A program made the translations under genes and the position numbers. 64,000 bases of DNA from the NCBI RefSeq assembly GCF_036711975.1, contig NC_091971.1, positions 14,391,501-14,455,500 of the forward strand, given 5' to 3'. Source of the stretch: Onthophagus taurus. Lineage: Eukaryota; Arthropoda; Insecta; Coleoptera; Scarabaeidae. Of the stretch, positions 26,266-64,000 are shown piece after piece. How positions within the stretch are numbered: the stretch's first letter is position 1; every line of letters begins with the position of its first letter. A model generated the notes under the pieces. It saw only the letters and a program-made list of their open reading frames with translations, did no database searches and was not told the origin of the DNA.

Positions 26266-26553
26266 TGGCGATAAATTAAATTAGACGGATTAGTAACGTT
26301 TTCACGTTCGAAAATTGTTTAATTTTTGCAATAATTAATGTAAAACTTTAAAATTCCCCACCCCTGATTCATTGTGACGTTTTAAGTAAGAAGAAAGAAA
26401 TCACAGACGTTCTATGTTTTGTAGTTAGTTACATGTGGCGACCTCTGTGTTGTTATGATATTTTCGAGTCTCGCGTTAACCTCCAAACGCACCCCAAATA
26501 TCAAACGTATAGTATCGTCGACTGTTTACGTGTTAAGAATAAGTAAAGTTAAG

Positions 26554-27526
26554 ATGAGTTTTAGAAATAGTTGCTTTGTGCCAACTTGTGACAGTGATAA
26601 AAATAAAAATCCAAAACTATATTTTGTACCAGTTCCACTAAATGTAGACCGTCGAAAACGATGGTTTGAGGCAGTAGGTTTAGATAAAAATCCCAACATT
26701 ACAACACGTTTTGTCTGCTGTGAACAACACTTTGATGTAAGTTTAAATTATATATTTGTAAATAGGGCCGTTAAGTTTTTTTTTTATTGGCTCATTCGAA
26801 AGTTTTTTAAAATTGATTGACCCCATATTTTTTAATTTTTGATTCTGAGGCTTAGTTTTTCCAAAAAAAAATAATAAAGTTAGAAATTACAGGCCGCGAA
26901 TTCAGTAGCGCGTCACTCAGATTTGAGCGTACGATTGGAGCGTATAAAAATCAATAAAATTCCTGGAGAGAGACAATGCTACGAATCTTATGCGCTAGAA
27001 GAAAACGGGAGAGAAATCACGTCTGTGATTTCTTTCTTCTTACTTAAAACGTCACAATGAATCAGGGGTGGGGAATTTTAAAGTTTTACATTAATTATTG
27101 CAAAAATTAAACAATTTTCGAACGTGAAAATGTTACTAATCCGTCTAATTTAATTTACATTATCGATTTTTTGAAAGACGGTCTTTCTAATCGATTGACC
27201 TTAACGGCCCTATTGATTATCTTATTTAATTATTTTTCTTTTAGTTTAAAAATGACGCTGAAAATTTGATGTTTTTCAAAACATTTAAGGACCAAGGTGA
27301 CTTAAATATTAAGTTACGATTAAAACCAGAAGTTGTACCACATAAGAATTTATCACCGGACGTTATACAGTCCCCGAAACGAACTAAAGTGGAATTAGAA
27401 GAAAGTGATTCTTCTCCTTCTAAAAGTTCAAGCCCATTTACAGCCTCTGATGAGTTGATGGATCTACAAACAAGTACATCTTCTGAAGAGGATGTGAAGA
27501 GGAGAGAAGCTCAAGTGACATTGTAA
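26554..27526 (+). CDS. THAP-domain protein, 154 residues, two exons
   Basis: Exons 26554-26736 and 27245-27526 join in phase 0 (donor GAT|GTAAGT, acceptor TTTTCTTTTAG). The N-terminal ~90 residues are a THAP zinc-binding DNA-binding domain: CFVPTCDSD, then VPVPLNVDRRKRWFEAVG, then FVCCEQHFD, and after the intron KLRLKPEVVPH. The C2CH pattern and the C-terminal VPH are as in the family. A short acidic, serine-rich tail follows (EESDSSPSKSSSPF) and the frame ends at TAA. No transposase domain is attached. The 5' flank is shared with terminal repeats nearby, so the gene is probably derived from, or part of, a THAP-bearing DNA transposon. The open frame in both exons suggests it is young or under selection. 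A host gene cannot be excluded. Confidence 0.75.
26765..27210. mobile_element. MITE with GGGCCGTTAAG ends inside the THAP intron
   Basis: Ends GGGCCGTTAAG and CTTAACGGCCC are perfect inverted repeats with TA on both sides. The right half (27010-27190) is an inverted copy of the THAP 5' region at 26266-26410 plus the terminus seen at 25482. It fills nearly all of the 508-bp intron. It looks like a deletion derivative of the element that carries the THAP frame. Confidence 0.85.
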
Positions 27527-31870: not shown

Positions 31871-32166
31871 GTAAGTACGCTTTTCGCATTGCTCGTAATG
31901 GTGTTTATCGCACATAACTTAACACCCCGTAACTAGACACGGCACCTAAACATCCTTAAATTCTTTATTTTCCAACAGTTTTTTCGGATATTTACATTCG
32001 ATTTTAACGTAAACTTTAAGTGTGACCTTCAAGGTACACCTTTTAGGATTGTGATTTGAACTTAACGATTTTGAATCATTTAAAAAAGAAAAATATGTTT
32101 ATGTAAATACCGGAAGTTGATTTTTTTTATTTTTCAAAATTGAAATTTTTTTATTGTAGTGTTACA

Positions 32167-35100
32167 ATGCCTAAGAAGAAGGAGATGACCCTTGATACTC
32201 CCACAAGGGTTCCACGACGAGCTGCCAGTAAAGAAGCACTTAAACAAATGCAAAAAATTACAGCTCAAGTTGATTCTGGCCCTGAAACATTGGAGATACA
32301 TTCGGATGATGATGAGGTACTTTTTTTACAATTATTATGAACTGTTTTTTTTTAAATTAATCTTGTGTAGGTAGTAACAATTGATCCAACTCCAAAAAAG
32401 AAATACAAACTGAGTCATAGAAAATCAGCAGATGGTAATGATGCTTAAATAACTTAAAAAAATCCTGCTTTATTCAATAATTACTTTATAGATCGAGATG
32501 TAATAGTTTTAAAAACAATATCATATGAGGATGATTCTTTAATGTTAGATTCATGGACTGATGATTTATCTCCGGCTCAAATAGCAATGAAGAATGCTAC
32601 CAAAAAAGAAATTGATGAGATCAACAGCCGGCTAGAGTTTTTGTTAAAAGAAACATCTTCACAGGTTATCCATACAGGGGATAATATAGCTTTATATGAA
32701 CTCGAATTAGAAGTGAAAAATGCACAAAGTAATTTTCAAAATATAATTTTTTATGTTATTATATTAAAATCTCGATATAACGGATTAATATGGGGAAGGA
32801 AGTGTCTCTTATAGCCAAAAATTTTTAGGTGATTAAGCCAAATATGCCTTATACAAAGTTAAATAGTTTAGAAATTATTTCAATTTTTTGGTTTTGGTAC
32901 ATTTTTAGTATATACTAATACAAATATTGGAATTTAGAGATTAATAATACTTTCTTTGACATCATATTGACTTCTCTAGATAAATTACACTCTAATACAC
33001 ATTTTAAGTTGAAAAATATTTTAAATATTTCGATTGTTTAAAAATACAGGGAAAAAATATTACGTGAATTAAGTTAATTATTAAACTAATCTTTTATGAG
33101 CGTCTATTTCAAAATTTTAATAACACATTTGGGGTTACAAATTATGTTAAAAAATTCTCTGTTTCATAACCTTTCAAATGAGATATTAACCAGGGGTAAA
33201 TGTCTCTCCAATTAGCTAATAATAAAATAAGCATTGGCGAATGTATAATTTAAAGTCGATTACGCCTACTATTTATTTTAACTTATAGGAACTAAAAAAC
33301 GTTAATTCATGAAGTCAATAAATGAAATTTAATTCGTTAATAATTATAAATCATCAATTATACAAATGTTTTACATTTAGCCAGTGCTAGAATGATTGAG
33401 AAGTGTATGAAGCAGGAATGATTGCAGGAAGGTTGAGCCTTAACTTAAAGGAGGAGCCCTAGCCTGAGTAGCATAGGCATCAGTGGACCAAATACCCACA
33501 TTACATTGCCCCTCAGCTCGGACATAACCATTTTTCAAGCAGAAATTCTTGCTATAAACTTCTGCACCGCTTTAAACCTACAAAAGGGACAGAAAGATGC
33601 AACCAGAAATATTTTTACAGACAGTCGGGCACTGATCAGAGAGTGTACCAGCAAGCTGAGAGAACTCGCTAGGGGCTGTGATGTTACTCTATGGTGGGTT
33701 CCAGGTCACAGAAACATTGAGGGCAATGAGAAGGCGGACAAGCTGGCCAGAGAGGCGGCGAAAACGACCTTGGGAATAGTTGGGAGGCCTCAAAGGTAGC
33801 CTTACGCTGGAAAGAACTTCCAGGTTACAGACGAGCGAAGAGTAGGTTTACGCCTCAGCAAAGGGGATCTAAGGACCTAAAATACCACCTCTTCCACATT
33901 GGACAAGTTGAGGATCAAACTTGTCGATTCGCAGTCGTATAGTTGCAATTTGGAAAGTAGTAAAATAAAATCACATTATAACAATAACACTTTATTAAGG
34001 GTTTAGAACGATATTTACTATTACTATTATTTTTATGTATAATTTTTTCCCATATTACGTCATCTTCGGATCTGTCCAAAGCGAAGTTTTTAACATAATT
34101 TGTAATGTATTTTTGAAATAGCCGCTCATAAAAAGTAATTTAAGTCACGAAACATATTTTCCCTGTATTTTTAAACAATCGAAATATTTAAAATATTTTT
34201 CAACTTAAAATGTGTATTAGAGTGTAGTCTATCCAGAGAAGTCAAAATGTTGCCAAAGAAATTTTTATTAAACTCTAAATTCCAGTATTAGTAGAAATAT
34301 ACAGGGTCCTTCAGCTCAGCTCTCCTCTTCTGTAGCTCAATTATTAATTATGTTAGGAGTTTAATATTTTGCAGGCTTATACTGTATTTCAGGTCGCATT
34401 TCAGGAAATTATAATTGAGTATACAGAGTGTCCCAAAAAGGTGTGACGCCATGATGATATATTTTTTTAAATGGCACGATATATCTTTTCTCACCTTTTA
34501 TGGGTGCCTACATAGTTCCAAAATTTTATTGAAATCGGCTGAATGACAGCAGGACAAAAAAATAAAAACGAAAAAAAATCGTACTTGCGTCGCTGGTTTT
34601 AAAAATTAATTATAATTACAAACAGCGCCTCATTAATAAAGTTTCATGTCAAACTTATTATGTAAGGTCTAGTGGATTTGTTAACCAAGTTCCATTGATT
34701 CAACATTATACAGAGTGGCCAAAATCTAGCGTCAAAACTTTCAAACTTTAAAGCATTTTATCTTTCTTATTATAAATTGGACCCCCCTACATATTTTGAT
34801 GTAAATCGATGCAGAATTAAAAAACTAAAATATTTTGTAATAATAACCCCATCACTATTCCTGACATTTGAAATGTTATTCGTCGAAAACTCGTATTTCA
34901 TCTATTCCAACGGCAATTTTAACTAATAAAAATTGAACGAATGAAAAACAATTTAGTTCATAAAAAATATAACATAAATAAACAATAATTCACGTTTGAG
35001 CGAACAGCTACTGAAATTGATTTTCGACATGTCTGCCGTTTTCTTCAATGCACAAACATAGACGAGTATAAAATGATCTTGCCACTTTTCTTAATAGGTC

Positions 35101-38100
35101 GGGTTAATGCTTAGAAATGCTTCCCGGATTCTATGCTGCATATTTTCTGGCATTGTTGGAGGTTGTTTATAAACGATTTCCTTAACATAGCTCCACAGAA
35201 AGAAATCGAGTTTAGTTAAGTCGGGTGATCGAGGTCCTCCTCTACCAACCCACCAATTTGGGAAGGTTGCGTTAAGATGGTCTCTGACTTGCAAAGAACA
35301 ATGTGCTGGAGGTCCATCACGTTGCAGCCTCATTTCTGCCCTTACAGCTATTGGTAAATTTTGAAATAAATTAGGCACCTGATTTTGCAAGAAATCCAGG
35401 TACATAGGTCCATCGAAATGTCCGTTAAAAAAGTAAGGACCAATAACATGATCGCCAATAATCCCTCCTCAAACATTAATTGACCATCTGTGTTGTCTAT
35501 CAATTTGATGAAAAATCTTTGGTTTGTTGTCCGAGTAATAATGGAAGTTATGACGATTAATAAATCCGTTTTTATGAAAGGTGGGCCTCATTGGTAAATA
35601 AAACTTTATCAAAAAAGTCAAAGTTTATCCTCAGTTTGGCTTGAGCCCAATTACAAAATTCGAAACGTTTCTCGAAACCTGTTTCAAGTAGTTCTTGATG
35701 AAACTGGATGCGATAAGCATGAAACCGGTTATCCTTTAAAATTTGGTGAACGGTTGTTTCACCGACACCCACAGCATCAGCGACTGCTTGTTGACTTTTT
35801 AATTACCGATAATAAAACTGCCGTTTCATTTTCTTTGAGCTGGCCTATTTCTAACTGGCTTTTTATAATTCACATTTCCCGTTTCTACAAATCTTTCTAA
35901 TAAATTTTGCAGACTTATTTATCGAGATGCCGTCGTTTCGGATAACGCTGTGCGTAAACTCGACTTGTCAAAAAACAGTTCTTTTCACATTCCCCTAATA
36001 TAAAAATCATGTCTACGAGCTCTTCTTTGTTGTACTCCATAGCAAAAAATAATATTGGCGTGTAAATAGCTTAAACAATTAGTACTGCGAAGGTAACAAT
36101 ATCGTCAAAATATGATTTCTTAGTCAATTGTTTATCATAGCACCACGATGGATTTTTATTAATTAAAATTGCCGTTGGAATAGATGAAATACGAGTTTTC
36201 GGCGAATAACATTTTAAATGTCAGGAATAGTGATGGGGTATTATTACAAAATATTTTTGTTTTTTAATTCTGCATCGATTTACATAAAAATATGTAGGTC
36301 CAATTTATAATAAGAAAGATAAAATGCTTTAAAGTTTGAAAGTTTTGACACTAGATTGTGGCCACCCTCCTGTATAGCGCCTGTAACAATCTAGCGCTGA
36401 ATAACACTTAAAACTTGAACTACCGTCCTTGATTTATATATCATATAGACAACTCGGGGAATACCGCTAGTTTATCTATGAGCATGGAATATAGTAACTT
36501 GGGGAATAACCCAAGGTGGATTTTATCCATAAGCGCCTACATTTATATATAAATATCAGAGCTGTTCAAACTACTTGAAAAAGTAGTGGAGTATAACTAC
36601 TAACTAGTTTCATCAAAAAGTAGTTAAACTACTTTCACCAAAAAGTAGTTTAACTACTTGGTACTTTAAAAATATGGTACTTAGATTACTAACTACCAAG
36701 TAGTTAGTACTTAAATGTCTAACTACATAATAAAATGCACTTTTGAGGGCTAGAAACCCAATGTCGTATCTATAACTGCAAAAATGCATAATATAACAAC
36801 TGTTATACATAAATTATGCTTAAAAGTCAGATTCTTTTGGTACTTCTAAAGCAAGGGCGTACTTTACAGAATGAAAACTACAGACTTGTTCTAACCATAG
36901 GTTCTAACGCGGCTTGTGTATACCGGGTGTCCCTCAAAAGTGGCTCACCCCCATATTTTTTTTATTATTAGTGATAAAGAAAACCATTTGGAATGCATAG
37001 TTAGGTCGCTAAAACGGATTATTACGACATGAAATCATTCTTTTTGTACTTCCGGTTACACCGGATGTGAGTACTAATTTCGTTATTGTTTTAAATCTAT
37101 AATTTTTTTTTCTTCAGTTGGGTAGACAGTATAATTTCACATAACTTTTATTTGAAAACATTTAATTTAAGTTTATTGCTACCAAATCAGCAATACATTC
37201 CACAAACAATTAAATTTTAACCATACTACAATTACATATATCACATTACAATACAATACATTTTATTTCCTATCCTACCCCTCCCCATCTCCTCCCCGCA
37301 TCACCCTACGCTGCCTCTTCGCCACCACCTCCCTCATCCATTCTCTTCCCTCTGCCCCCTCCCCCAGCACCTGCTTCCAGCCGATCACCTCCTCTCTTAG
37401 CTCGTCACACTCCCTCAGTAGGTGCTCCAACGACTCCCACTCCCCCCCACATAGCCTACAACCCCTCTCATCATCTCTCATCTAATACCTATTCGCTCTC
37501 TCCTCATTGCCGCATCTGAATCTTGCCACCATTCTCATCCCCCTCCACCGACAGGTACTTCGGCAGTCCCTCCGTTATTATTTCCTCGTACTTAGGGTTG
37601 TACCTGCTCTCCCTTATCTGCCCCCTTCTTTCTTGCCTCTGTACATCTCTGTCCCTGCTCTCCAGCTCTTTCCACATCTCAATCCCTTCCCTCCTTCTAT
37701 CATCTACCGCTTTCACTGAGTACCCCACCCTTCTGAAATATTCCTCCCTCCCTCGTTGCCCGTAACCCCCTTTCCCTGCCTTAATCTCTTTCCAGCACTC
37801 CCCCAAAATTTTACATTGAGACCTCCCTTCAACCCTCTCCTCAAAACGTACCGCCCTTTTACCCGCCTCCACTCTTAACTTATTAACCTTCACCTCTTCT
37901 CTGACTATGTACTCCGGCGTCTCTTTTGCCAACCCCAAAACCCATCTCCAATACCTAGCCTGTACGCCTTCCAACAGCCTTTGCTCTTTCCACCCCCAAA
38001 GCTCCGCCCCGTACATCATAACACTTCTAATCAAGCACTCGAATATCATCTTCCTTTTTCCCATATCCCTTCCAAATAATCTCTCTCCCCACTCCCAGAC

Positions 38101-41100
38101 CTGCCCCATCACCTTATTCGCCTTCTTTGCCATTGCCCTCACATGCGCGCCTTCCTTGTTGTCCTCTCTAAATCTGTACCCCAAATATGTGTACTCCCTC
38201 ACCTCCTCTATCTCCTTCCCTTCCCACCTCCAGTCTTCGCTCTTCCTTCTACCCCCTTTACAGAACTTCATAACCTTTGTCTTTCCTACATTCACCTCCA
38301 GAGCCTTCCCCCTAAAATAACTCTCCAAACTCCGCATCATCGCCTTCATCTCCTTCGCCTCTCTCGCCACTACCACCAAATCGTCCGCGTAAGCCAGTGA
38401 ATGCACCTTCTTCCTCCCTACAACCACACCTCCCATCTGCCCACCGGTCAATCTGTCTTCCATGTCTGCGGTATACAAGGCAAACAGAGCGGGACTAAGT
38501 GGACTTCCCTGCCTCAAACCCCTCGTTGTCCAGAATCTATCCGTTAACTCGTCCCCCACCTTTACCCTAGCTATCGTCTCTGCGTATATCTCCCTCATCC
38601 TGTTTATTGTCCCACCAGTAATCCCTCTCCTCCTCATCTCCTCCCATAACTTCCCTCTATTCACCTTATTAAACGCTGCCTTTAGATCTATGAATAGGGC
38701 GTAAAGCTTCCCTTCCAGCTCTTTATCCACCAAGTGCTTCAATATGTACACGTTATCTATCGCGCCCCTTCCCTTTCTAAATCCTGCCTGTCCGTCCGGT
38801 AAGATCCCTTTCTCTTCCATCTCTTCCTCCAACCTCTGCAGCAGCACCTTCGCATATATCTTGTACGCCGAGTCCATTAAGCTAATTCCCCTATAACTTT
38901 CCACTACTCCCTTCACTCCCTTCTTGTACACGGGGCTTATTATCGCCTCCATCCAATCGGAAACCCTTCCCCTTCCCAAACTTTGTTCAGCTCTTCCAAC
39001 AACTTTCCCCTCACTTCTCCCGTTGCCTCCAGCCATGCCTCATTCTGGACACCGTCCCCCCCTGGAGCCTTCCCCCCAACGCCGCCTCCATTTGTTCCCC
39101 GGCCATCTCCTCTCCTTTCCGTCCCCCTGTATCTACTTCCTCTACCCGCCTCTCCTCTTCCCCCTCCAGCAGACCCTTGAAGTAATCTCTCCACTCCGTC
39201 ATTTGTATTTCACTGGTAATTTCCTCTCGTACTTTCCTTATTTTGTTTATATATTTCCAAACTTCACCCTCTTGTCTCACCCTTCTAATCTCTTCCGCCT
39301 CCCTCTCCCTCTCCCTCAATTCTTTCTTTTTTCTTTTGCATATCTCTTTATATCCCCTCAATGCTTCCCTATATTCTTCCACCCCCACCAACCCTCTCCG
39401 CCACTGTCTCAACTTCCTTCTCGGAATCCTTCTCGAATTTGAAAACATTTTCACGATCGCTTATAACTTTTGAATTATTTTCGTTTTTTTTAACGTTTTA
39501 GTACCTTCGGAAAATGTATTACAACTTTTGACACAGAGTAGCTAGGTTAATAGTACAAACTACGTTATGTCCCTCTTGATTTGCTATTCCTCGAGCAGTG
39601 ATCACTGCTATACTTTAGTTAGTGGTTCTTTTTTAATAATGGTGTAAATTAACAGTTGTATTAAATTAGTTTTAGAAGAAAAACGCTATCCAACAATTAA
39701 ATTTAATTCAATCGTAAGTTCAAAAAAATTAATTTTCTAAATTTTCAAAATGCTCCCGCTCGATTTTGACATAATTGTATTTTGCGTATTGTCGATCTAA
39801 CAACCCGACGTTATTCCTGCGGAGATATTTAGGTAATACAATTTCTAACTCGATTTATTTTCTAATACCTCACGAGACCTTACTGGTGTATTATACAGCT
39901 CATTTTTGATTTTGCCCCATAAAAAAGAATCTAAAGGTGTGAGGTCAGGTGATCGGAGAGGTTTTAACCAAAATAAAGTAAACAATCCAAATTATAATGT
40001 ACAATGGACATTGTAAGTAACTATCAGCTACAGAACATTTAGTGTAAAAGAACAAAAAACAAAGAAAAAAATCAAAAATAATTGAATTAAACTTAATTGT
40101 TTGATCGCGTTTTTCTTTTAAAACTAATTTAATACAACTGTTAATTTACACCATTATTAAAAAAGAACCACTGACTAAAGCGTAGCAGTGATCACTGCTC
40201 AAGAAATAGCAAATCAAGAGGGACATAACGTAGTTTATACTATTAACCTAGCTACTATGCGTCAAAAGTTGTAATACATTTTCCGAAGGTACTAAAACGT
40301 TATAAAATAACGAAAATAATTTTTTTTTCAAAAACTATAAGCGATCGTGAAAATTATTTCAAGTAAAAGTTATGTGAAATTATACTATCAACCCAATTGA
40401 AGAAAAAAAAAATTATAGATTTAAAAAAATAGCGAAATTAGTACTCACATCCGGTATAACCGGAAGTACAAAAAGAATGATTTCATGTCGTAATAATCCA
40501 TTTTAGCGACCTAACTATGCATTCCAAATGGTTTTCTTATATCACCAATAATAAAGAAAAATATGGGGGTGAGCCACTTTTGAGGGACACCCGGTATAAG
40601 TACATACTAGATATTTGGAAGTACTTAAACTGTCTTAAAAGTAGTTAAATTACTTAAAAGGAATTAAAATAAACAAAAATAGTTAGAATACGTAAAGTAG
40701 TTAACAATGAGGAGTTAACTACTTTCTGCGAATATTTTATGCCAGCATAAAATAATCGAGTATAACTACTAATAGAATAAAAGTAGTTAGAATACAACTA
40801 TTTTTACACAAAAAGTAGTTGACTACGTAGTTAGTTAACTACTGCCTAGCTCTGATAAATATACTGATGTATTAAATAGATAATATTAATAGTATGCCTT
40901 AAAAATATTTGTCCGTTCTAACGAGGTTCGTTATATCGAGATTTTACTATACTTAAATCTAAATATTTTTTATTTAGAATCCAACCCAACTTCGACACCA
41001 CCGGCAACTGTTGTGCAACCACAAGCTGTTAAAAATAATCAAGCTTTTCAATTAGTAATGGACGCGCGATCAGGAGTTGTTGTAGGAACTATGACGCCTG

Positions 41101-44100
41101 CAACATCAGCAACTTTAGCGGCAGTTTCTAGCGTTAATAGTGTTTCTAATGTAAAAGCTCCTCAAACCAGAAAAAGAACGCGCGCAGCCGCTAATCTCCC
41201 TACGACTTCTGCACCTCCAATAAAAGTGACGAAATCTACGATCCCACCACCGATTGTATCTGTTACGACACCCGCTGCTACTACTCAAAGAGCTACTGAA
41301 GCAACAGCTGTAGGGGGTTTAAGTCACGGTAATCTTCAACAAAAACAAACTGCTATTGTCGATCTTACGTCAGATGAAAGTCGAACCGCCACTGCCCCCG
41401 ATTCTCGAGAGGTCTCTTTTAATAAATTACAAGGTAAAACTTTTCCTTCCTTAGTTGTCGTCGCTAGGCCTCATCTCCGCGCTAAGGATAATGTAACTAC
41501 CGATCGACAAATATTAGATTCCAAAGTTAAAGCGGTTTTGATGCATATTCCAACAAAATTCACAGAATGGTAAATTATTTTTTTAAGAATAAAATAATTT
41601 TATAAAACTATTTATCTTTAGGTTAATTCAGGTCGGATTGATTCGTTCCGAACAAACTTGTACTCATGGTAATAAACTCAAACTTGGAATGTACAGTGAC
41701 GTCACAAAATTTCCTTTTTCGGGAGGTTACGTGTGGATTTCAGACTGTTGTCCTCAAAAATTCGTTTCTGTCTTTAGTAATTCGGTGTTCGAAGGATCTC
41801 CACATCCACCCACCGTTATTCTTAAATTAATATATCATTGGGCCTGTCAGACAAACGTTCAAAACGTTGTGCAATGGGTTAAAGTTGATAATCTCTATGT
41901 GAAAGGAATGAATACATGGTTGAGAGCGATTTGTACTGTTGCAATTCACACACACCTTGGATTATTGGGTAATCCATCAATGAAAGTAGAAGTAGGTGTA
42001 ATCTCTTTGGGGACGACATCCCAAGACGGTAATCAAAGACAAGTTAAAGTTGAGGTATTAGGAGTTTTGGATGTTGCAACAAATTTGGTGCGATTAAAAG
42101 CTGTTGAACCGATGGTTGATGGCGATAGGAATTATAGAAGGAGGTTTTCAAAGATTTTGGAACCTTTAGTTAAGTGGGTACACCCGGGAAGTATTATTAT
42201 AACTGATTTAACTGTTGATAAAAGTACGTTACACGCTTTGGGTTTTAAAAATGTTGTGCAAGCGTCTGTTAATGATTCATTAAGTAATCTGACGATTATG
42301 AATTATTTACGAAGAATTGTACCGAGAATGTTCCAAAATACGCTTTCACTACTTTCGCGGCAAATCATACAACAATTTTTAGATGAATTAGTGTGGAGAG
42401 AACGTTATGGAACTACTCCAGCTTTAGCTTTTGATAATATCATTACTCATTTGTCGGAACAGACGAAGGTTGATGGTATTAATTTAGTGCATAGATTAAC
42501 GAAAATCTCGAGTAATCCGTTCAAAAATTGGAGTTTAAATAATATTCATTCACAAACAACCCCATCGCCACCTCCTCCAATTAGTAAACCTCAAAATATA
42601 CCCCCATTAGCACCACTTATGTTAACCACAGAGAGCACTATGAGACCGTATAAAAATAAACGAATTAAAGATAATTCAGTACCAGAATCATCAAAATCGC
42701 GGAAGTCTCCCGATATTCCGGAACAAATGGTTCCATTAGAACATTATTATTACGGTACAATCGATGCTCCAGAAGGTAGAGCACCAAAGATTACAAACGT
42801 TGTTTATAAATGTGGAATGTGCAAATCTCAGTTTACCAACAACATTAAATTAATGCTCCATCTATTCCACCACATCAGTTCAAGCAACATTAAATTTTTA
42901 TGTAAATATTGTTTAGTACAATTCAATTCGGCCGAACTACTTGAAAAACACATACAAAAATCACACCCGAACGACACAAAAGTAGACGAAATCTTCGTGT
43001 GTGTTATATGTGAAGGAAAATTTTACAATCCTTACAGTCTCGGAAAACATATGTCGCGAGAGCACGTCCCTTCCGAGTTACCCTATCAATGTTTAACATG
43101 TCGTATGCGTTGCTCTAGTCATAGACAAGCAGTCGATCATTTTTATGAAAAACACGACGGAGGAACCTCAATACAATGCCCTTTGTGTTTAAAATGCATG
43201 TCTGTATATTCGAACACACGGGTTCTTACGCAAAACATGAGTTATTTCGTGCAACATTTACAAAAACACAGCAAGAAAATAGGTGCAAAAAAATGTCCAA
43301 AATGCGCACTTTGGTTTGTCCAAAAAGATTTATTAAAAGACCATATTATAAAAATGCATACTTCAATGAGAAGAAAAGCAGGATTAGTTCCTTGGCCTGT
43401 TCCTCGAGCTATTATCATGGTTCCAAAATCGCGACAAGATGAACCAGGAGAACAAATCAACGTTGACATTAGCAATGTAATATTAAATTTCAATTTGGAT
43501 AAACACGTTTGTAAAGAGTGTGGGGGACATTTAAGTATAAAAGATCATTATCCGTAAGTGATTTTATACAAATTTATTTTAATCTTAATAATATTTATTT
43601 ATCTACGACTGCTTGGATAACTCATCATTACCGCACTCATTTGAGTTACGTAATGAAGTTCATTACCGCACTGGTTTCATTACGTAACGCATTTTTAGCC
43701 TAATCAGAACAGACTTAATTTATTGAAACGAGCAACAATACAAAAGAAAAAGCGATCTATTTACAGAGAAACAATATTTATTATAAACATTAATTGTTAT
43801 GTTTTTACATTTCAAAACACTTATTCCAGATGAGTAAACATGTTGAAACTGACAGTTCAAAATTGTCAACAATCATTTCAAAATATTTTTATAAATGTCA
43901 AATAGACTTTTTTAAAGAAATTGATTTTTTCGTAATTTTTAGCAGTCGTAGATAAAGTGCTGTATATCACACGTGGGCTAGAGCACAATTACAGTACTCG
44001 TATGATTACACGACTCGGTCTACGACCTCGTCGTGCAATTCTCCACACTCCTACAGTAATTATGCTTCTAGCCCACTTGTAATATAAATAACTATTATCT

Positions 44101-47100
44101 ACGACTGCTTGGATAAGTCATCATTACCGCACTCATTTGAGGTGATTTGAGTTACGTAATGAAGTTCATTACCGCACTGGTTTCATTACGTAACGCTTTT
44201 TTAGCCTAATCAGAACAGACTTAATTTATTGAAACGAGCAACAATACAAAAGAAAAAGCTATCTACTTACAGAGAAACAATACTATTTATTATAAACATT
44301 AATTGTTATGTTTTTACATTTCAAAACACTTATTCCAGATGAGTAAACATGTTGAAACTGACAGTTCAAAATTGTCAACAATCATTTCAGAATATTTTTA
44401 TAAATGTCAAATAGACTGTTTTAAAGAAATTGATTTTTTCGTAATTTTTAGCAGTCGTAGATAAAGTGCTGTATATCACACGTGGGCTAGAGCATAATTA
44501 CAGTACTCGTATGATTACACGACTCGGTCTACGACCTCGTCGTGCAATTAACCACACTCGTATTGTAATTATGTTCCTAGCCCACTTGTAATATAAATAA
44601 CTATTATCTACGACTGCTTGGATAAGTCATCATTACCGCACTCATTTGAGGTGATTTGAGTTACGTAATGAAGTTCATTACCGCACTGGTTTCATTACGT
44701 AACGCATTTTTAGCCTAATCAGAACAGACTTAATTTATTGAAACGAGCAACAATACAAAAGAAAAAGCGATCTACTTACAGAGAAACAATATTATTTATT
44801 ATAAACATTAATTGTTATGTTTTTACATTTCAAAACACTTATTCCAGATGAGTAAACATGTTGAATCTGACAATTCAAAATTGTCAACAATCATTTCAAA
44901 ATATTTTTATAAATGTCAAATAGACTTTTTCAAGAAATTTATTTTTTCGTAATTTTTAGCAGTCGTAGATAAAGTGCTGTATATCACACGTGGGCTAGAG
45001 CATAATTACAGTACTCGTGTGATTACACGACTCGGTCTACGACCTCGTCGTGGAATTCTCCACACTCGTACAGTAATTATGCTTCTAGCCCACTTGTAAT
45101 ATAAATAACTATTATCTACGACTACTTGGATAAGTCATCATTACCGCACTCATTTGAGGTGATTTGAGTTACGTAATGAAGTTCATTACCGCGCTGGTTC
45201 CATTACGTAACGCATTTTTAGCCTAATCAGAACAGACTCAATTTATTGAAACGAGCAACAATACAAAAGAAAAAGTGCTATCTACTTACAGAGAAACAAT
45301 ACTATTTATTATAAACATTAATTGTTATGTTTTTACATTTCAAAACACTTATTCCAGATGAGTAAACATGTTAAAACTGACAGTTCAAACTTGTCAACAA
45401 TCATTTCAAAATATTTTTATAAATGTCAAATAGACTTTTTTAAAGAAATTGATTTTTTCGTAATTTTTAGCAGTCGTAAATAAAGTGCTGTATATCACAC
45501 GTGGGCTAGAGCATAATTACAGTACTCGTGTGATTACACGACTCGGTCTACGACCTCGTCGTGGAATTCTCCACACTCGTACAGTAATTATGCTTCTAGC
45601 CGACTTGTAATATAAATAACTATTATCTACGACTGCTTGGATAAGTCATCATTACCGCACTCATTTGAGGTGATTTGAGTTACGTAATGAAGTTCATTAC
45701 CGCACTGGTTTCATTACGTAACGCATTTTTAGCCTAATCAGAACAGACTTAATTTATTGAAACGAGCAACAATACAAAAGAAAAAGTGCTATCTACTTAC
45801 AGAGAAACAATAGTATTTATTATAAACATTAATTGTTATGTTTTTACATTTCAAAACACTTATTCCAGATGAGTAAACATGTTGAAACTGACAGTTCAAA
45901 ATTGTCAACAATCATTTCAAAATATTTTTATAAATGTCAAATAGACTTTTTTAAAGAAATTGATTTTTTCGTAATTTTTAGCAGTCGTAGGTAAAGTGCT
46001 GTATATCACACGTGGGCTAGAGCATAATTACAGTACTCGTATGATTACACGACTTGGTCTACGACCTCGTCGTGGAATTCTCCACACTCATACAGTAATT
46101 ATGCTTCTAGCCCACTTGTAATATAAATAACTATTATCTACGACTGCTTGGATAAGTCATCATTACCGCACTCATTTGAGGTGATTTGAGTTACGTAATG
46201 AAGTTCATTACCGCACTGGTTTCATTACGTAACGCATTTTTAGCCTAATCAGAACAGACTTAATTTATTGAAACGAGCAACAATACAAAAGAAAAAGTGC
46301 TATCTACTTACAGAGAAACAATACTATTTATTATAAACATTAATTGTTATGTTTTTACATTTCAAAACACTTATTCCAGATGAGTAAACATGTTGAAACT
46401 GACAATTCAAAATTGTCAACAATCATTTCAAAATATTTTTATAAATGTCAAATAGACTTTTTAAAGAAATTTATTTTTTCGTAATTTTTAGCAGTCGTAG
46501 ATAAAGTGCTGTATATCACACGTGGGCTAGAGCATAATTACAGTACTCGTATGATTACACTCGTATTGTAATTATGTTCCTAGCTCACTTATAATATAAA
46601 TAACTATTACAGGTCGATACAAAATTGTTCTAACGACAACTGCCAATATACAACATGCTGTAAACGAGCAATGTTAAAACACACATTAATATGTAAAGAT
46701 TTAAAAACAACAATTCCCATACAAAGTTTACCATTCAAAATGTATTGCGTTTGTGGTCACAATGATAAGGACGGTACGAATCAAAAAAAAATTCAATAAA
46801 TAAAAAGTTATTTATTTATTTGTTTTTAGGGAATTCTATGGCGAAACATTTAACAGTTTGTGAACGAAAATCAGCATATCCTTCAGAAGCAGAAGCTAAA
46901 GCAGCTACGGTAACGCACAGTATGTTAGATGTTTTAGGTTTAATGAGACGAACAGAAGAACCCAGTTCTTCTTCAGTTGATATATCAAAAGATGAAATAA
47001 AAATCGAAGAACCAATAATAACGAAATCATCGGATAAAGAACTTGACGATGTAGAAATAAAAATGACGGTGGATTTGTGTGAAGATGATTCTACATCTGA

Positions 47101-47269
47101 AGAGGTTACAAAAAATAATGGTGATTCATCAACTTTAGATGGTGATGAAAAATTGTTGGAACCAGACGAGAATGGTTTATTAAATGAGAATATAATGGAT
47201 ATTACGGAATGTGTAAGTGTTGAGGATGATGTGGTGCAAAAGAAATTGGGGGAACCAATGGATGAGTAA
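32167..47269 (+). CDS. row: Row/POGZ-like zinc-finger protein with a degenerate Merlin-type transposase domain
   Basis: Exons 32160-32316 (ATG at 32167), 32371-32434, 32492-32728, 40978-41569, 41622-43553, 46613-46773 and 46830-47269 join in phase after a non-coding first exon. They give 1191 residues. The start MPKKKEMTLD is the first in-frame ATG after the acceptor. Residues ~345-612 match a Merlin/ISXO2 (IS1016-type) transposase along its length: GLIRSEQTCTHGNKLKLG, LKLIYHWAC, VEVGVISLG, HPGSIIITDL. C2H2-type fingers follow from 42808 to 43355 (YKCGMCKSQF, FLCKYCLVQF, FVCVICEGKF, YQCLTCRMRC, IQCPLCLKC, KKCPKCALWF), and more cysteine pairs lie in exons 6-7. The finger series, mainly CPLCLK...H...C.KC.L.F, is that of Row (Drosophila partner of WOC and HP1c) and vertebrate POGZ. 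The acidic C-terminus ends at TAA, with AATAAA at about 47437. It is a nuclear chromatin factor by family. Introns 4 and 6 are swollen by repeats. The symbol is by family resemblance. Confidence 0.72.
32895..34310. repeat. Inverted repeat pair (~230-bp arms) around a LINE fragment
   Basis: The arm at about 32895-33150 is mirrored at about 34080-34310. An example is TTTAAGTTGAAAAATATTTT at 33003 against AAAATATTTTTCAACTTAAA at 34191. The arms differ by small changes. The LINE RNase H fragment at 33430-33935 lies between them. This is a fold-back or two opposed copies of one repeat. Confidence 0.8.
33430..33935 (+). mobile_element. LINE fragment: RNase H domain
   Basis: The plus strand reads ITIFQAEILAINFCTALNLQ, then NIFTDSRALIRECTSK and VTLWWVPGHRNIEGNEKADK, the E, D and H-x-x-x-G-NE-AD signature of RNase H at the C-terminus of jockey/R1-type non-LTR retrotransposons. 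The frame stops at 33799 and continues in another frame as far as CRFAV near 33935. It is truncated at both ends. Confidence 0.8.
34711..36372 (-). mobile_element. Mariner-like element with ~210-bp terminal inverted repeats and dead transposase
   Basis: The ends CAGAGTGGCCAAAATCTAGC (34711) and, inverted, GCTAGATTGTGGCC-type text ending at 36372 form arms of about 210 bp, flanked by TA. The transposase runs on the minus strand from ATG at 36040 (MEYNKEELVDMIFILGE) to a stop at 35091. It shows GVGETTVHQILKDNRF, DFFDKVLFTNEAHLS and then DGPPAHCS and RSPDLTKLDFFLWSYVKE, the order of a mariner/DUF4817-type DDE enzyme. Frameshifts and in-frame stops near 35900 and 35460-35800 disable it. It lies inside Row intron 4. 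Confidence 0.88.
37163..39435 (-). mobile_element. GC-rich LINE (reverse transcriptase), 5' truncated, with 14-bp target duplication
   Basis: The exact 14-base duplication ATTTGAAAACATTT flanks the insert (37149-37162 and 39436-39449). The minus strand encodes a reverse transcriptase. It shows SPVYKKGVKGVVESYRGISL, QAGFRKGRGAIDNVYILKHL, FIDLKAAFNKVNR, RQGSPLSPALFALYTADM and the catalytic LAYADDLVVVARE, in a 510-codon frame (39036-37504). Two frameshifts near 39060 and 38980 and a stop at about 37483 break the full frame, after which a C-x-x-C...H....C knuckle follows (CRLCGGEWESLEHLLREC). Base composition is strikingly GC-rich and C-rich on the plus strand, unlike everything around it. It is young by its clean duplication but inactive. 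Confidence 0.92.
39840..39960 (-). pseudogene. Transposase C-terminal vestige in the fold-back core
   Basis: The minus strand reads RSPDLTPLDSFLWGKIKNEL followed by SREVLEN, the block around the last catalytic aspartate of mariner/DUF4817-type transposases. The rest of the gene is absent. This ties the fold-back element to that superfamily. Confidence 0.75.
43600..46600. repeat. ~510-bp tandem repeat, about six copies, filling Row intron 6
   Basis: The landmark TCTACGACTGCTTGGATAA (one copy ACTACTTGG) occurs at about 43602, 44098, 44607, 45114, 45626 and 46137, spacings of 496-512 bases. Each unit has TATCTACGACTGC near its start and the inverse GCAGTCGTAGATA about 340 bases on. Then comes a ~104-base hairpin with arms GTGGGCTAGAGCATAATTAC / GTAATTATGCTTCTAGCCCAC around an inner CACGAC...GTCGTG stem. 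The last copy lacks part of the hairpin. The array fills the intron from 46 bases after the donor to about 12 bases before the acceptor. Confidence 0.93.
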
Positions 47270-51798: not shown

Positions 51799-54700
51799 TC
51801 AAGCGGATGGGAGTCCATCAAAAACGGCAATAGCTAAAAGTAAATTTCTTCTTGTAAAGTGCAAAGAAACAATCGGCGAATTTTTCGTTCCAATACTACG
51901 CATTAAATAAGCCTCGCCATTTTTAACTTCCGGATTATGCGAAATATTAACATCCTCCGAATTAGTATCTTCAGCTAATTTATTAAAATCCCATAACTTC
52001 ACCGTACAATCCAACGAGCCGGATGCTAAAATATTTCCACATCGGCTAAAAATCAAGGAATGTATCGTTTTCTCGTGCGCTCCAAGTTCCGCTACGAGAT
52101 GTCCATGAGCTAAATCCCACACCAAAACTTTCGTATCCGAACCACCCGATGCTAAAAATCTCCCACAAACGCTAAATGCCAAAGCATAAATCGGCGATTT
52201 ATGCCCGGTCATCAACCGGACGTGATTTCCAGTTAAAACATCCCACAAACAAACCCGACGATCGCTCGAACCAGTCGCGACATAATTCGAATTTGGATGA
52301 AATTGAACAACATCAACATCCGAAAAATGTCCCGCGAAAATTCTTAATGGTTGATATTGATCTGTAGCCCATAATCTCGCTGTTCTATCATTAGAACACG
52401 TTGCAAAATAATAACCCATCGGTGAAAATCGAACGTTCCAAACCGGATACATATGACCTTTATAAACAACAACACAATTCCAAATTTGAAGACTCCACAA
52501 ACGGATTGTGGTATCCTCGGAACAACTCAATAAAAGAGAACGATCTGGTGAAAACGCCAGGGAATATACAGCGCCGGAATGGCCAAACATCGTTCTGGAA
52601 GATTCCCCAGATCTTTGATCCATCATTCGAACGAGAACATCATCCGCGTCGATATTGATATCTTGAAGTTGATCGGCGCTTTTCATCGATCTTAATTTTT
52701 GTGGAATTAATGTGTATACTTTTATTGATGCATCCGCCATTCCAACAGCTAACATACTGGAATCTTCGGCCACTTCAGCACTGGATACACTACATTAAAA
52801 ACGTTATTAAATGTTTAAAAATTAAAAAAAAAATCTTACTTATGATTTGCATTTAATAACGTATAACTGCATATTGATGGTAAAGTTTCAGCTCCCAAAT
52901 TAACTCTTCTGGACGATTCTCTAAGCAGTTTTATCCTTTCTATTTTATCGTTGTCTTTCCTAAATATAAATAATGTATAAGGTTTTAATAAATAAATTAT
53001 ATTAACGCCTGGTTTTATAATCAACTTTTACCAACCTTCTGATAAAGTATCTAGGTGATAACAGCCGATTTTAGCAAAGATCATAAAATCTAAAGACTGT
53101 CACATCTTTTGTAATCTAGAAAATGATGTCAGAGAATGAAAATGATGTTATACATATAAATCAAGTTTTCCAATAAAACACAAAAGAGCCCGATTCAATG
53201 TACCTTAGTGGACTAACTAAGGATCTTGAACAAATCGGGCATTCCAAACTCTAGCGTTCCCATGTAACTATAAAAGGTGAAGAAATTCCTTTCTCAAAGG
53301 AAGTCAAATATCTAGGAGTAATCCTAGACAAAACCTTGTCATGGAAAGGAGATTTGTAAGGAATTTTGCACAAAGCTAGACTATCCTTGTGGACTTGTCG
53401 CAGTCTTTGTGGAAAAAATTGGGGTCTTACCCCTGAAAGACTGTACTGGCTCTATGTGACTTTCTGTAGCTGGATTGGCAATCTCTGGTGCAATAAGCAC
53501 AACGCTAACTCTAGCAAATTGATGTTCTGCTTGGCTTATCTCTTTGAATTTCCATATAGAGAAATTGACTAGAACTACCATTTACTTAGGTTTACTACTA
53601 TTTATTTAGGTTGACTGCCATGTGTTCCGTTTCTGGTACACATACGTTGGTTTATGCAAGCGACTGTATTTTGTTTTAAGTATTGTCCTTGAGGCCATGA
53701 TGTATATTTATACGCCGGGAAAGAAGCAATGCAAGGAATATCCGTGTCTAACAAAGTTGTTATGAAATTAACCTGTACAATAAAGTCTACATACACCCCA
53801 GAAAATCATAATATCTCAGAACTGAACTGTATGAAATTTGAACTCAATGAAATTTTTAAACGAAGGATATTAGAAGTGTATATTATTATAATATTTTACA
53901 TAAAAATGTATAACTCATTATTTATAATGAAAAACACAAAACATAATCACATTTATAACTCAAAAAAGACTACATACGTAGTTTCCTGTTACATTCACAA
54001 TTAAAACAACTCAAAATTTACATACTAATTAATATTTGGTAGGTCCTCCCTTGGCAGCAAGAACTGCTGCTAATCGTCGAGGCATAAAATCAACTAAATT
54101 AGCTGTAATTTCTGGTGAAATACTCTGCCATTCCCGTAATAGTGCAGCTTTTAAGTTGTTTTTATTTTTAATACCTAGCTTCCGAATTTTGCGGTCAAGA
54201 AGACTGCGGTGGTGACTGTAGCTGTTTAGGGATATTATAATAATACCCATTCCTTCACAATGTGTGCGTTGTGCATGGGATCATTATCGCGTTGGAATAT
54301 CCACTCTGTTCCCAAGCCTAATTTATTGACGATTCCTTTAAATTAGTTCGCAATATGTTCAGATAAACATAGCGGTCCATAATTGTTTAATTTGGCAAAA
54401 TCGACTCTTTTTTTCGCATTTATTTCGGATATAAACGGCTTTCTTCTTGGAGCACTACTATTATAGCCTTCACTTCATAACACCTTTATAGAGCCGGTTA
54501 TAGAGCTTGATGCCGCGAGTGATTTGGTTATATCAACCGCAGTTGTTGTCGGCTGATCGTTGATCATTTTTAAAATTGACCGATTATCTCTAGGTGTCAG
54601 TATACGTGGTCGGCCACTTCTTGGTTTGTTTTTGATTGACTGACGTTTCTTATAATTTCGAATTACTATCTGGACCGAAGAACGCTTTTACTAACTATTT

Positions 54701-57700
54701 TTGCGATTTCAGTTAATGAACGACCATTATTATGATTGTGAATTATGATATTTCGCACTGCATAAGGTATTCCTTTCCGTTTAGCTTCCATTGTATTACT
54801 AATTACACTAATTTATGTTAGTATACTGCTATAGCAACAACGTTGGTACGAAATAAAATGAAACTACATCAACTATGATGTTTACAAATAAAAAGTAATG
54901 TCGTGTTATAGCTGTATGTAGACTTTTTTGAGTTACAAATATGGTTATGTTTTGTGTTTTTCAATATAAATAATAAGTTATACATTTTTATGTAAAATAT
55001 TCTAATAACATACACTTCTAATATCATTCGTTTAAAAATTTCAGGAGCTGAGATTATGATTTTCTAGGGTGTATGTAGACTTTATTGTACCACTGTACAA
55101 TGGTACTCATTAATTCGAAAAAGAAATTGAAACATGTACCACGGACGATCCCAAAATAATTTTGGCAATGCAATAAAAAAAGCTGTGGCAGTCAACCTGT
55201 TAAGCTATTTGCTCAATTTTGTTATTTGTTCCAACATATGTCACCAATAGACTGTGAAAGACATTATAAGCACTGATATTGTGCTATCAATGTCGTCAGA
55301 TTTGGCAGGATCACTATAGTCTGTTTTTAAACTAGGAGGAGTGAATCCGAAAGTCAGATTTACACTAGGAAATATCACCAGAAAATATCACTAGATATTT
55401 TTAGCGGTAAATTTAAAGTAACCATTCATTTAAAACAACCATCATTGTTATTTGTTTAATAAATTCAAAATCGTTGTCAACAAGAAATAAAAATTGCCTG
55501 TGTATAAACTTTAAAATGCTCCTCTCTGGTTCAGGCAGATATTTGCATTTTCATAGATGGATCAAAATCGTCAGAAGGGACCGGAGCAAGAGTATACTGC
55601 CAGACACTTCGAATTAAGCAAGCTTACAGTCTAGGTATGTACTGTACTGTATTCCAAGAGGGAGTATTTGCTATTGACGTGGGTGCTAAAATCCATCTTG
55701 AAAGAGGGGTGACAGTCAAGCCGCTCTCTAGGCACTGCAGACCGTGAAAACGGTGTCGGTTCTGGTTAATGACTGTAAGAAAACTTTAAACACACTGAGT
55801 TGGGATAACAGAATTTCTCTGATCTGGGTCCCAGGTCAATGGGGTTGATGGCAATGAAGCGGCAGATGAGCTAGCACATGAAGCGTTTGTGGGGCCAGAG
55901 CCAGCATAGAATTGGACTGTGGGCTGAAGAGAGTCGTACATCGCCTACTGTGGACCAGTTGGTTATGACAGCGCCACTGTCAAATTCGGGAATATTTTAG
56001 GACTAGCTCGTAGCAGCATTAAAGTTCTAATGGGTGTCTTTACTGGACACTGCCGATTAAAGACACACCACAACTTATTGAGCCTTAATGTTCGTTAAGA
56101 ACATTGGACGTACAGAGACATTTGATAAGGTTATCTATCGGGGTATAATAGACCCTTAGGTTCATGGTGCAAGGTTGGTTGCTTCGCCTACCTAATATGT
56201 ACTTTATGTAAATGTACATGGGATCCCTATAGGAGGCCTATAAAAGCCGAAAAGACAAACATGGCGTAGATTCTGCATAGGTATAGACGCGCATGCATAA
56301 GGTCTTGGCAAAATATCACAACACTTATCTAGGCATTCAAAGAAAATGGGCTGAAGATGCTTCAAAAGTCTTTTCCATCCGTTCATCTGGCAGGATTTGC
56401 AGCTTATCTGGGAAAATTTTTACATCCAGTAGAGTTAGGTAGGCTATTTCTAATTTTAAGCCATTAAAATCACCTGGAGGAGATGAAATTCTGCCTATCT
56501 CTCTGCAAATAGGCAAAGAAGATCTACTTCCAGTGTTTATATCCATAAACATAACTAACTAAAGCGTTAGTTATACATTTAGATTATGGAGTAAAGGTAA
56601 AGGAAAGTAAAGGTAGTCTTTATGCCCAAAGGTGGAAAGCGTTTTAAGGTTGATCGCAAGACATACAGGCCAATTAGTTTAACTTCCTTTCTCCTCAAAG
56701 GGATGGAAAAGGTCAACTCCATCCAAACATGCTTATCAGAAAACAAAAGCATCAATTATTGCCCTCCATGCTTTGACGAGAAATTTAGAGGAGACAATTG
56801 CAGTCAAAGAGATAGCCCTGTATATATTCATAGACAGAAAAGGATAACACTTCCTATGAATTTATAGAGAAAGCTCTAAATGTGAGACATGCTGAGAAGT
56901 CAGCAGATCACAGCCAGTTTAGGTTGCAAGACAACATGGACACCTATTCATAGAAAATGGGCTGAAGATGCTTCAAAAGTCTTTCCTAATGCAGACGCAG
57001 ATCCTGCAGTAATGGATATCATCGAGTTAGGTAGGCTATTTCTAATTTTAAGCCATTAAAATCACCTGGAGGAGATGAAATTCTGCCTATCTCTCCGCAA
57101 ATAGGCAAAGAAGATCTACTTCCAGTGTTTATATCCATAAACATAACTAACTAAAGCGTTAGTTATACATTTAGATTATGGAGTAAAGGTAAAGGAAAGT
57201 AAAGGTAGTCGTTATGCCCAAAGGTGGAAAGCGTTTTAAGGCTGATCGCAAGACATACAGGCCAATTAGTTTAACTTCCTTTCTCCTCAAAGACAATTGC
57301 AGTCAAAGAGATAGCTCTATATATATACATAGACAGAAAAGGGTAACACTTCCTATGAATTTATAGAGAAAGCTCTAAATGTGAGACATGCTGAGAAGTC
57401 AGCAGATCACAGCCAGTTTAGGTGGAGAATGCCCCAAAGCCTCTCCTATGGTGCCTAGTAGTTGACATAATGTTGAACATTCTAACAGAGAATGGATTCA
57501 AAGATATGGAGATGATCACAATTTGAAATAAATATGATACAATAACCCAATTAGTGCAGAAAACCTTAAAACAGAACGACATTACATAACACAAATAGAA
57601 TAAATTAAGCATTTTAATCATTCCCAAGATGTATCAGTCTTCTTAGATTTTACCATCCTATTTTATCATTGCGAATTTTTATTCATTACATATCAGCATA

Positions 57701-58698
57701 ATTAGTAATTTTAATTATACTTTATCTAAAGTGTTTGTTCAAGTTGATTATGTAACAAGGCATAAAGATAATTACAAATCTGGAAATGGGATTCTATCTG
57801 ATGGTGGTGCATTTGGATCAGATTTTGTCTTCTTTGAATACAAAGGATCCTTTTTAGCCTTTTTCTTCTTTGGTTTATCAGACCCATCTTGTTCATTAGC
57901 TTCTTCTTCATCTTCAGCTGGTGGGACTGAAGTTAAAGTAGCCAAATCTGGCGCTTTTGGGATTCCATAAAGCACTTTTGTTTTGTTATCTAAATAAATT
58001 AAAAATTAAAAATAATGTAATTAACAAAAAAAATTATTACCTTGTCTAGTTGCTTCCCCAATTAAAGCTCCTGATGTAGCATCAATTTGAGTTTTATTCC
58101 TAGCGACTCCTTCGTACATATCAAAATATAAATGTTCGTGAATAATATTTAAAGTAATCGAAGCTTTTTTCTCGTTTAAATGCCTTTTTAATAAGGATAA
58201 AGTATCTCTTGACATCCGAATTATAAATTGATTTGATTTAAAAGTATCAGCAAGTTCATTTCCGTTCATGTGATCCCTTTTTATAATTAACGCAAGTTTT
58301 TTTAAATCATCTTGATAGTATAAATCTTGTTCTGGCCCAAATTTTCGCATTAAATCAATAGCTTTCTCTGTATGACCATTATACACCAGTTCTAGATACA
58401 TGTGCACCAAAACGGGGTATAAAATCATCCCTAATTCATGCTTATAAATATCGAGGGTGTTATCAACAAAACGTCTTAATTCAACGTAACTATCCTCATA
58501 AGCTTCTGGGTCCCCATCACTTTTATAACCGGTTAAAACACTGTTCACATCCGATTCTTGTTGCAAAGAAGACGAGTCAAGATCCACTTCAATGTTCGCT
58601 TCTTTCTTGAGGGATTCTTCAGTTGATTTCAAGTTGTATTTTTTTAATATTTGAAGCACCGCAATAAGCTGATTCTTATCGGGGGCGTCTGATTGCAT
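51799..58698 (-). CDS. Taf5: TAF5, WD40 subunit of transcription factor TFIID
   Basis: Four exons join in phase: 58698-58041, 57989-57776, 52959-52840 and 52789-51799, giving 660 residues. Residues ~8-40 form a LisH motif (IAVLQILKKYNLKSTEESLK). Residues ~60-200 are the TAF5 N-terminal domain (YVELRRFVDNTLDIYKHELG, then VLVHMYLELVYNG). A lysine-rich linker follows (KPKKKKAKKDPLYSKKTKSD). SLPSICSYTLLNA-type text then leads into the WD40 propeller, with five clear repeats (MFGHSGAVYSLAFSPD, YKGHMYPVWNVRFSP, FAGHFSDVDVVQFHP, MTGHKSPIYALAF, LGAHEKTIHSLIFS) and a last weaker one. The subunit scaffolds TFIID in the nucleus for RNA polymerase II initiation. The protein is slightly shorter than fly and human forms. 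Intron 2 (4.8 kb) is full of LINE and Tc1 relics. A minus-strand AATAAA lies near 51755. Confidence 0.95.
53150..53465 (+). mobile_element. LINE fragment: reverse-transcriptase thumb
   Basis: The plus strand reads VTIKGEEIPFSKEVKYLGVI then LDKTLSWKGDL, one stop, and HKARLSLWTCRSLCGKNWGL ending TPERLYWLYVT. This is the segment that follows the catalytic palm in jockey-type elements. It lies in TAF5 intron 2 and may belong to the same family as 55540-57420. Confidence 0.8.
53778..55087 (-). mobile_element. Tc1-like element with ~200-bp terminal inverted repeats, dead transposase
   Basis: The ends CAATAAAGTCTACATACACC and GGTGTATGTAGACTTTATTG are inverted repeats flanked by TA, and similarity extends about 200 bases inward. 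The transposase starts on the minus strand at about 54792 (MEAKRKGIPYAVRNIIIHNH, then RSLTEIAKIV). It ends at 54029 with LREWQSISPEITANLVDFMP and RRLAAVLAAKGGPTKY, a typical Tc1 C-terminus. Frameshifts and stops lie in the middle. Confidence 0.9.
55540..56340 (+). mobile_element. LINE fragment: RNase H domain and tail, plus-strand copy
   Basis: The plus strand reads CIFIDGSK-like text, then SLGMYCTVFQ, then LNTLSWDNRISLIWVPGQW and GNEAADELAHEAFVGPEPA. This is the RNase H signature (D, E, and H/Q...G-NEAAD), here with several frameshifts. It is the mirror copy of 47705-48433, so two opposed copies bracket the 3' part of TAF5. Confidence 0.85.
56342..57420 (+). mobile_element. LINE reverse-transcriptase fragments in a ~610-bp tandem duplication
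   Basis: GAAAATGGGCTGAAGATGCT starts at 56342 and again at about 56954, and both are followed by the same text: KPLKSPGGDEILPISLQIGK, then a frame shift, then FMPKGGKRFKVDRKTYRPIS and LTSFLLKGMEK. The second copy has an internal deletion of part of the RT. These are finger and palm parts of a jockey-type element, not functional. They lie in TAF5 intron 2. Confidence 0.85.
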
Positions 58699-58699
58699 T

Positions 58700-62516: not shown

Positions 62517-64000
<1,484 letters not shown>

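Follow-up and report, generated by a model that had tools for sequence, protein, structure and literature searches.

Fusion of a transposase to a chromatin factor is a known route to new regulators. Vertebrate POGZ is described, in the accessible part of PMC7386202, as a chimera derived from Passer/pogo, with HTH_Tnp_Tc5 and DDE_1 domains, a DD35D signature and zinc fingers that lie toward the N-terminus. In the excerpted table of fly and human genes in PMC10948934, POGZ is paired with Drosophila Row (relative of woc, CG8092). According to the available text of PMC9078007, Row is a zinc-finger protein that associates with HP1c and Woc; HP1c depends on it to reach euchromatin, and it acts together with BEAF-32. 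Several Merlin proteins carry additional domains as well, among them an example from C. brenneri with IS1595 and WD40 domains, and these have been proposed as possible functional chimeras (PMC8101967, as far as the text is accessible). Here we describe a Row/POGZ-type gene in a 64-kb window of Onthophagus taurus (the window being the whole stretch of DNA analysed, on contig C6 of a genome of 290.8 Mb in 33 contigs). This gene probably holds a non-catalytic, domesticated Merlin pseudo-transposase ahead of its zinc fingers.

A Merlin-like domain in a POGZ-like gene

The + strand of the window contains an open frame of 654 codons (41593-43557), and all of the strings quoted in an earlier, sequence-only reading of this DNA lie within it. 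That reading took the product for a Row/POGZ-like zinc-finger protein with a full-length but catalytically dead Merlin-type transposase inside. GT-AG introns join 41569 to 41622, 43553 to 46613 and 46773 to 46830, all in frame. On the joined exons, the zf-POGZ profile (PF25429) scores 39.3 bits against a cut-off of 27 (E 9.3e-10), with the match spanning the junction 43553|46613. A whole-genome search with this profile gave three matches, the best of them at this locus, which scores 23.7 bits, under the cut-off, when the exon is read alone. With 39.3 bits over 27, the Row/POGZ-like assignment was right at the level of the family, and the host gene is confirmed by its sequence as a POGZ-like (Row-type) zinc-finger factor. 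In a search of PDB sequences the fingers match other C2H2 chains, and no POGZ chain was among the matches of the last fingers. Neither the pogo helix-turn-helix nor the DDE_1 domain of vertebrate POGZ gave a Pfam match in the exons scanned, the exons upstream being unsettled.

Merlin likeness covers ∼285 residues ahead of the zinc fingers. From profiles, alignment and a structural model, we delimit here a putative Merlin-derived pseudo-transposase domain (41622..42474, +), composed of a ribbon remnant, a helical part, an RNase H-like core and C-terminal helices. The bounds given earlier, 41600..42420, shift at both ends. The exon starts at 41622 and the domain begins one exon earlier, with the final residues FTEW of exon 40979..41569 (FTEW|LIQVGLI across the intron); at the other end, the domain stops near 42474, slightly past 42420. 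The residue numbers 345-612 given with those bounds depend on an upstream gene model, which could not be confirmed.

The host genome has its own Merlin elements. PF12762 matches 42 places, 38 of them above the cut-off, and at least two families are present: A (e.g. L008, 72.7 bits with PF12762) and B (L031/L032/L034), whose C-terminal piece scores 40.3 bits with PF12762 and whose N-terminal piece weakly matches the PF12760 zinc ribbon (E 0.0072). A number of Merlin A copies among loci L008-L026 and L031-L039 have open frames of 300-340 amino acids, and several are clustered on contigs C1, C3, C8 and C11. The Merlin B frames are split by ∼500 bp, which may be an intron.

To compare the stretch with these families, we built a joint profile from eight proteins of family A and four pieces of family B, and used a query of 353 residues. 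The joint profile scored 18.2 bits (E 1.3e-4 in a 2002-sequence set), while the best of 2000 shuffles reached 5.3. After addition of 31 IS1595 rows the score was 17.9 bits over residues 80-316, and the best shuffle gave 5.1. For decoys, once 30 loci with the query or Merlin had been removed, we collected 937 frames no shorter than 100 amino acids; they came from the window, a plasmid, GTDB, IMG/VR, a few loci of the host's own genome and, for E. coli MG1655, three stretches of 50 kb. Of these frames, 390 lie outside IS1595 loci. With the joint A and B profile the query ranked first over these 390 frames, at 18.2 bits versus 3.0 for the next best. Alignment of Merlin family A to the stretch with hhalign gave an E value of 1.8e-6 and a probability of 89.8 across 184 columns. 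The N-terminal piece of Merlin B alone reached 12.7 bits (best shuffle, 7.0). Collectively, these comparisons confirm, at the level of sequence, that the resemblance of the stretch to Merlin is above chance.

The alignments also keep the Merlin order. FTEW(LIQV)GLIRSE corresponds to LREW-GFIPKE and GGYVW to DGYLW, followed by VSVFSNSVFEGSP with VSFRTGTFFANSK and ILKLIYHWA with ILDIVYGWA. In the catalytic region, KVEVGVI aligns with VVEIDES, and WVHPGSIIITD with WIRPGTTIISD. Toward the C-terminus, the motif FLDELVWRERYG (42376..42411, +) matches YLHEFIWRNKF of Merlin family B in pairwise, profile and IS1595-row alignments. Past the second Asp the MAFFT alignments conflict: the version with IS1595 rows agrees with the WR motif, and the multiple alignment with Merlin A does not. 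At the N-terminal end, alignment to Merlin A and B and the Cys/His positions point to a zinc ribbon remnant, GLIRSEQTCTHG...GGYVWISDCC (41635..41766, +), which reads CTHG and SDCC at the positions of the CxxC pairs CDNC and CKEC in Merlin B. Although an intact ribbon is not universal among Merlin/IS1595 members, about half of the ligands are gone here, so the N-terminal ribbon described in the sequence-only reading is there as a remnant, with its ligands only partly kept. The broader claim, that the likeness to Merlin/ISXO2 runs from start to end, is borne out from the ribbon to the C-terminal helices by the alignments and the joint profiles.

Structure prediction gave a compatible picture in one of two models. 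With 20 IS1595 rows as a guide, the model shows a predicted RNase H-like core, in the order β-β-β-α-β-α-β-α, which resembles DDE (Asp-Asp-Glu) transposases and integrases. The RNase H-like fold that had been expected is therefore seen in the IS1595-guided model, and the single-sequence model is uninformative. In Foldseek searches with the guided model, the best solved structures were mariner transposases and integrases, from a library in which the presence of IS1595 was not established. The second match was the transposase domain of SETMAR, which belongs to the mariner family and not to Merlin.

Several results weigh against a Merlin origin. The guided model has an average predicted local distance difference test (pLDDT) score of 55.6, and its first four Foldseek matches have template modelling (TM) scores of 0.21-0.25. 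For the single-sequence model, pLDDT is 37.5, the best Foldseek E value is 0.16, and the VIA-align rows fall mostly on residues 220-300. Pfam DDE_Tnp_IS1595 heads the Pfam list, at 15.6 bits against a cut-off of 27 (E 0.017; the match covers positions 64-152 of a 153-position profile). Merlin family A alone scored 9.7 bits, with 7.5 for the best shuffle; the C-terminal piece of Merlin B alone scored 4.0, and a shuffle got 12.9. For the bacterial IS1595 profile alone (31 rows, from 29 of 43 loci plus L005 and L006), the score was 2.1 bits, and a shuffle got 10.8. As the bacterial profile is not significant, a direct bacterial origin is not favoured. The profile match anticipated in the earlier reading was thus significant with the joint Merlin profiles and sub-threshold with Pfam DDE_Tnp_IS1595. 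Of the two outcomes that this reading had named as refutations, a lack of any significant match and a fold unrelated to RNase H, neither was obtained. With weak or negative scores from single families and from bacterial IS1595, the case for Merlin rests on the joint profiles and on colinearity.

Other searches returned little. An NCBIfam scan gave no match on the domain. A PDB sequence search with the entire large exon gave 79 matches, and the 60 listed all begin at or after frame residue 354, past the domain. IMG/VR contigs yielded no homologues of the domain; for Merlin family A there were none in either IMG/VR or GTDB contigs, and for the N-terminal piece of Merlin B none in IMG/VR or phages. 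The plasmid IS1595 (L002), searched in GTDB contigs, yielded a single identical copy and nothing else.

A different origin would accommodate some of these results. The stretch could be a true RNase H-like domain whose likeness to Merlin arose by convergence, its source being a different DDE family or an ancient RNase H-like fold of cellular origin. It shares only ∼20-26% identity with the Merlin proteins of the genome, the Pfam IS1595 match is sub-threshold, and the Foldseek search led to mariner transposases and integrases, with the same proviso about its library. However, the match extends beyond the RNase H core, with GGYVW...VSVFSNSVFEGS...LIYHWA on its N-terminal side and FLDELVWRERYG on its C-terminal side. 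Moreover, a Pfam scan to E 10 showed no other transposase family, though HMMER filters drop most matches above ∼0.1. We consider convergence improbable.

Probable domestication and catalytic state

If the stretch derives from Merlin, is it still a transposable element? Searched in the genome, it has one match at E ≤ 0.001, which is itself. It is ∼20-26% identical to Merlin family A of the genome, whereas identity between A and the N-terminal piece of B is 35-41%. There are no stop codons in frame and 14-29 in the other five frames; 5000 shuffles gave a mean of 20.8, and none gave zero. The intron at 41570-41621 (52 bp, GT-AG) lies near the N-terminal end of the Merlin-like domain, and the Merlin-derived stretch and the zinc fingers share one exon. 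The sequence-only reading had stressed that the frame stays fully open beside the fingers, and it is indeed stop-free and spliced into the POGZ-like gene. Its further claim, of a domesticated transposase in a chromatin factor, is supported by the single copy, the stop-free frame, the intron, the exon common with the fingers and the 20-26% identity.

The same features bear on the possibility of a recent Merlin insertion that is read through by chance, as a pseudogene or by mis-splicing. The many Merlin copies in the genome (those 42 PF12762 matches, 38 above cut-off) would provide a source for such an event. However, the stretch is only ∼20-26% identical to them, single-copy and stop-free, a GT-AG intron crosses it near its N-terminal end, and zinc fingers lie in the same exon, all of which makes a chance read-through very unlikely.

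Alignments and codons indicate the state of the catalytic residues. At the first acid place (41995..42000, +), the VEIDES-type sequence reads VEVGVI, with Asp changed to Gly and the next Glu to Val; the acid itself is replaced by Gly125 (GGT, 41995-41997). The second acid is kept, as Asp195 in GSIIITD (GAT, 42205..42207, +). At the third place (42310..42312, +) stands Arg230 (CGA), in place of the Glu in the NGIES of IS1595, the register here being that of the MAFFT alignment with IS1595 rows. Residues 219-253 are devoid of D and E, so the third acid would be missing across a wide range of registers. The DDE triad in the stretch thus reads G, D, R, and two of the three catalytic positions are changed, as had been proposed. 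These data argue that the transposase module is apparently catalytically dead. Because the tests of triad and copy number both fail, the stretch is, as judged from its residues, Merlin-derived yet not a Merlin transposase. A transposase-like nuclease that works through other acids has hardly any chance of being right: one catalytic Asp is retained, but the first acid is Gly and the third Arg, no D or E occurs at 219-253, and the ribbon ligands are partly gone.

What a domesticated, catalytically dead Merlin core might do is a more tentative matter, and we put the following forward with slightly less than even confidence. The module would have lost DNA cleavage and kept the other activities of a transposase core, namely self-association and, via the helical part at its N-terminus, contact with DNA. 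As a scaffold that dimerises or binds DNA next to the zinc fingers, it may act with them to hold the factor at genomic sites, from which the factor could recruit HP1-type and WOC-type partners, as described for Drosophila Row.

Exons, repeats and neighbouring genes

The Merlin-derived domain, a Pro-rich linker and the first zinc fingers are encoded in one large exon (41622..43553, +), defined by its open frame, splice sites and in-frame joins. Within it, the C2H2-type zinc-finger array (42793..43553, +) is matched by several zf-C2H2 Pfam families, each under its own cut-off. The preceding coding exon (40979..41569, +; open frame, GT donor at 41570) is Ala/Thr/Pro-rich with a basic QTRKRTRAAA; its start at 40979 was inferred from an AG acceptor, and exons further upstream are candidates only. 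Downstream, the next exon (46613..46773, +) reads SIQNCSNDNCQYTTCCKRAM...CVCGHNDKD, and the zf-POGZ double finger crosses the junction 43553|46613. The last exon (46830..47269, +) reads GNSMAKHLTV...GEPMDE, with an acidic tail and a stop codon at 47267-47269, and is without a pogo domain. A candidate 5' end of the gene consists of two frames, 32107-32337 and 32458-32811 (+), with MPKKKEMTLDTPTRVPRR... and ...SWTDDLSPAQIAMKNATKKEIDEINSRLEFLLKE...; neither has a Pfam match at E 0.01.

Repeats are found on both sides of the large exon. Six head-to-tail units at a spacing of 496-511 bp (43603-46540) fill the intron between POGZ-like exons, with a marker word at 43625, 44121, 44630, 45138, 45649 and 46160. 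Also in this intron, CTACGACTGCT and AGCAGTCGTAG form an inverted pair that resembles the ends of small DNA transposons and occur 5 times each. Upstream of exon 40979, two arms of 227 nucleotides, 94% complementary and 368 nucleotides apart (39486-40307), suggest a foldback or an element like a miniature inverted-repeat transposable element. Further upstream, 37504-39460 (−) is a reverse transcriptase frame like those of long interspersed nuclear elements (RVT_1, 124 bits on 37504-39036). Arrays of a ∼362-bp repeat lie at 4345-5918, 11857-12849 and 16186-18303, two of which also show a ∼180-bp period.

As for neighbouring genes, pieces of a TAF5-like gene (WD40 repeats, TFIID_NTD2; 51799-58722, −) adjoin the POGZ-like gene, and an acylphosphatase lies at 62883-63269 (−). 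A frame at 26425-26817 (+) encodes a THAP domain (36.3 bits over a cut-off of 23.9), a DNA-binding domain related to transposases. The Pfam scan also gave a match to the chemosensory receptor family 7tm_7, which, like the Row/POGZ gene, would fit an insect genome.

Comparison with known systems

Among the literature matches listed, judged by titles and the starts of abstracts, there was no report of a Merlin domain in POGZ or Row. The main text of PMC10027918, a survey of transposon-derived metazoan factors, is without the words Merlin, IS1595 and POGZ. Provisionally, then, a Merlin domain in a Row/POGZ gene is undescribed.

Relative to Merlin/IS1595 proteins (PF12762, PF12760), the stretch shows homology along the protein, a predicted RNase H-like core and the C-terminal WR motif. 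It differs in that two acids and part of the ribbon have been lost, the stretch is a single copy inside a host gene, and its Pfam score is under the cut-off. The Merlin chimeras of PMC8101967 likewise join a Merlin domain to another domain; in the accessible part of that paper, by contrast, no POGZ-like zinc-finger gene is among them, and catalytic state is not discussed. With vertebrate POGZ, as described in the available portion of PMC7386202, the locus shares POGZ-type zinc fingers and the fusion of a chromatin gene with a domesticated DDE transposase. The difference is that here the transposase is Merlin-type and ahead of the fingers, and none of the exons scanned gave a match to a pogo domain. 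Drosophila Row is likened to the locus through its pairing with POGZ and through published descriptions of the protein.

These likenesses and differences lead to a proposal whose chances we regard as evenly balanced: that POGZ/Row took up two unrelated transposase superfamilies independently, a C-terminal pogo in vertebrates and a pre-finger Merlin in insects, the latter retained, catalytically dead, as an architectural part of the Row-HP1-Woc system. If this is true, the same chromatin gene was fused twice with transposases of different source, which suggests that a transposase-shaped DNA-binding or self-binding module is useful there. Should fly or beetle Row have the module, it would explain a large, experimentally removable region. 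Fusions of this sort are already known, with SETMAR and other host-transposase fusions likewise joining a transposase core to a chromatin protein; what appears to be new here is a POGZ-group chimera in which the zinc fingers are joined to a transposase from another superfamily.
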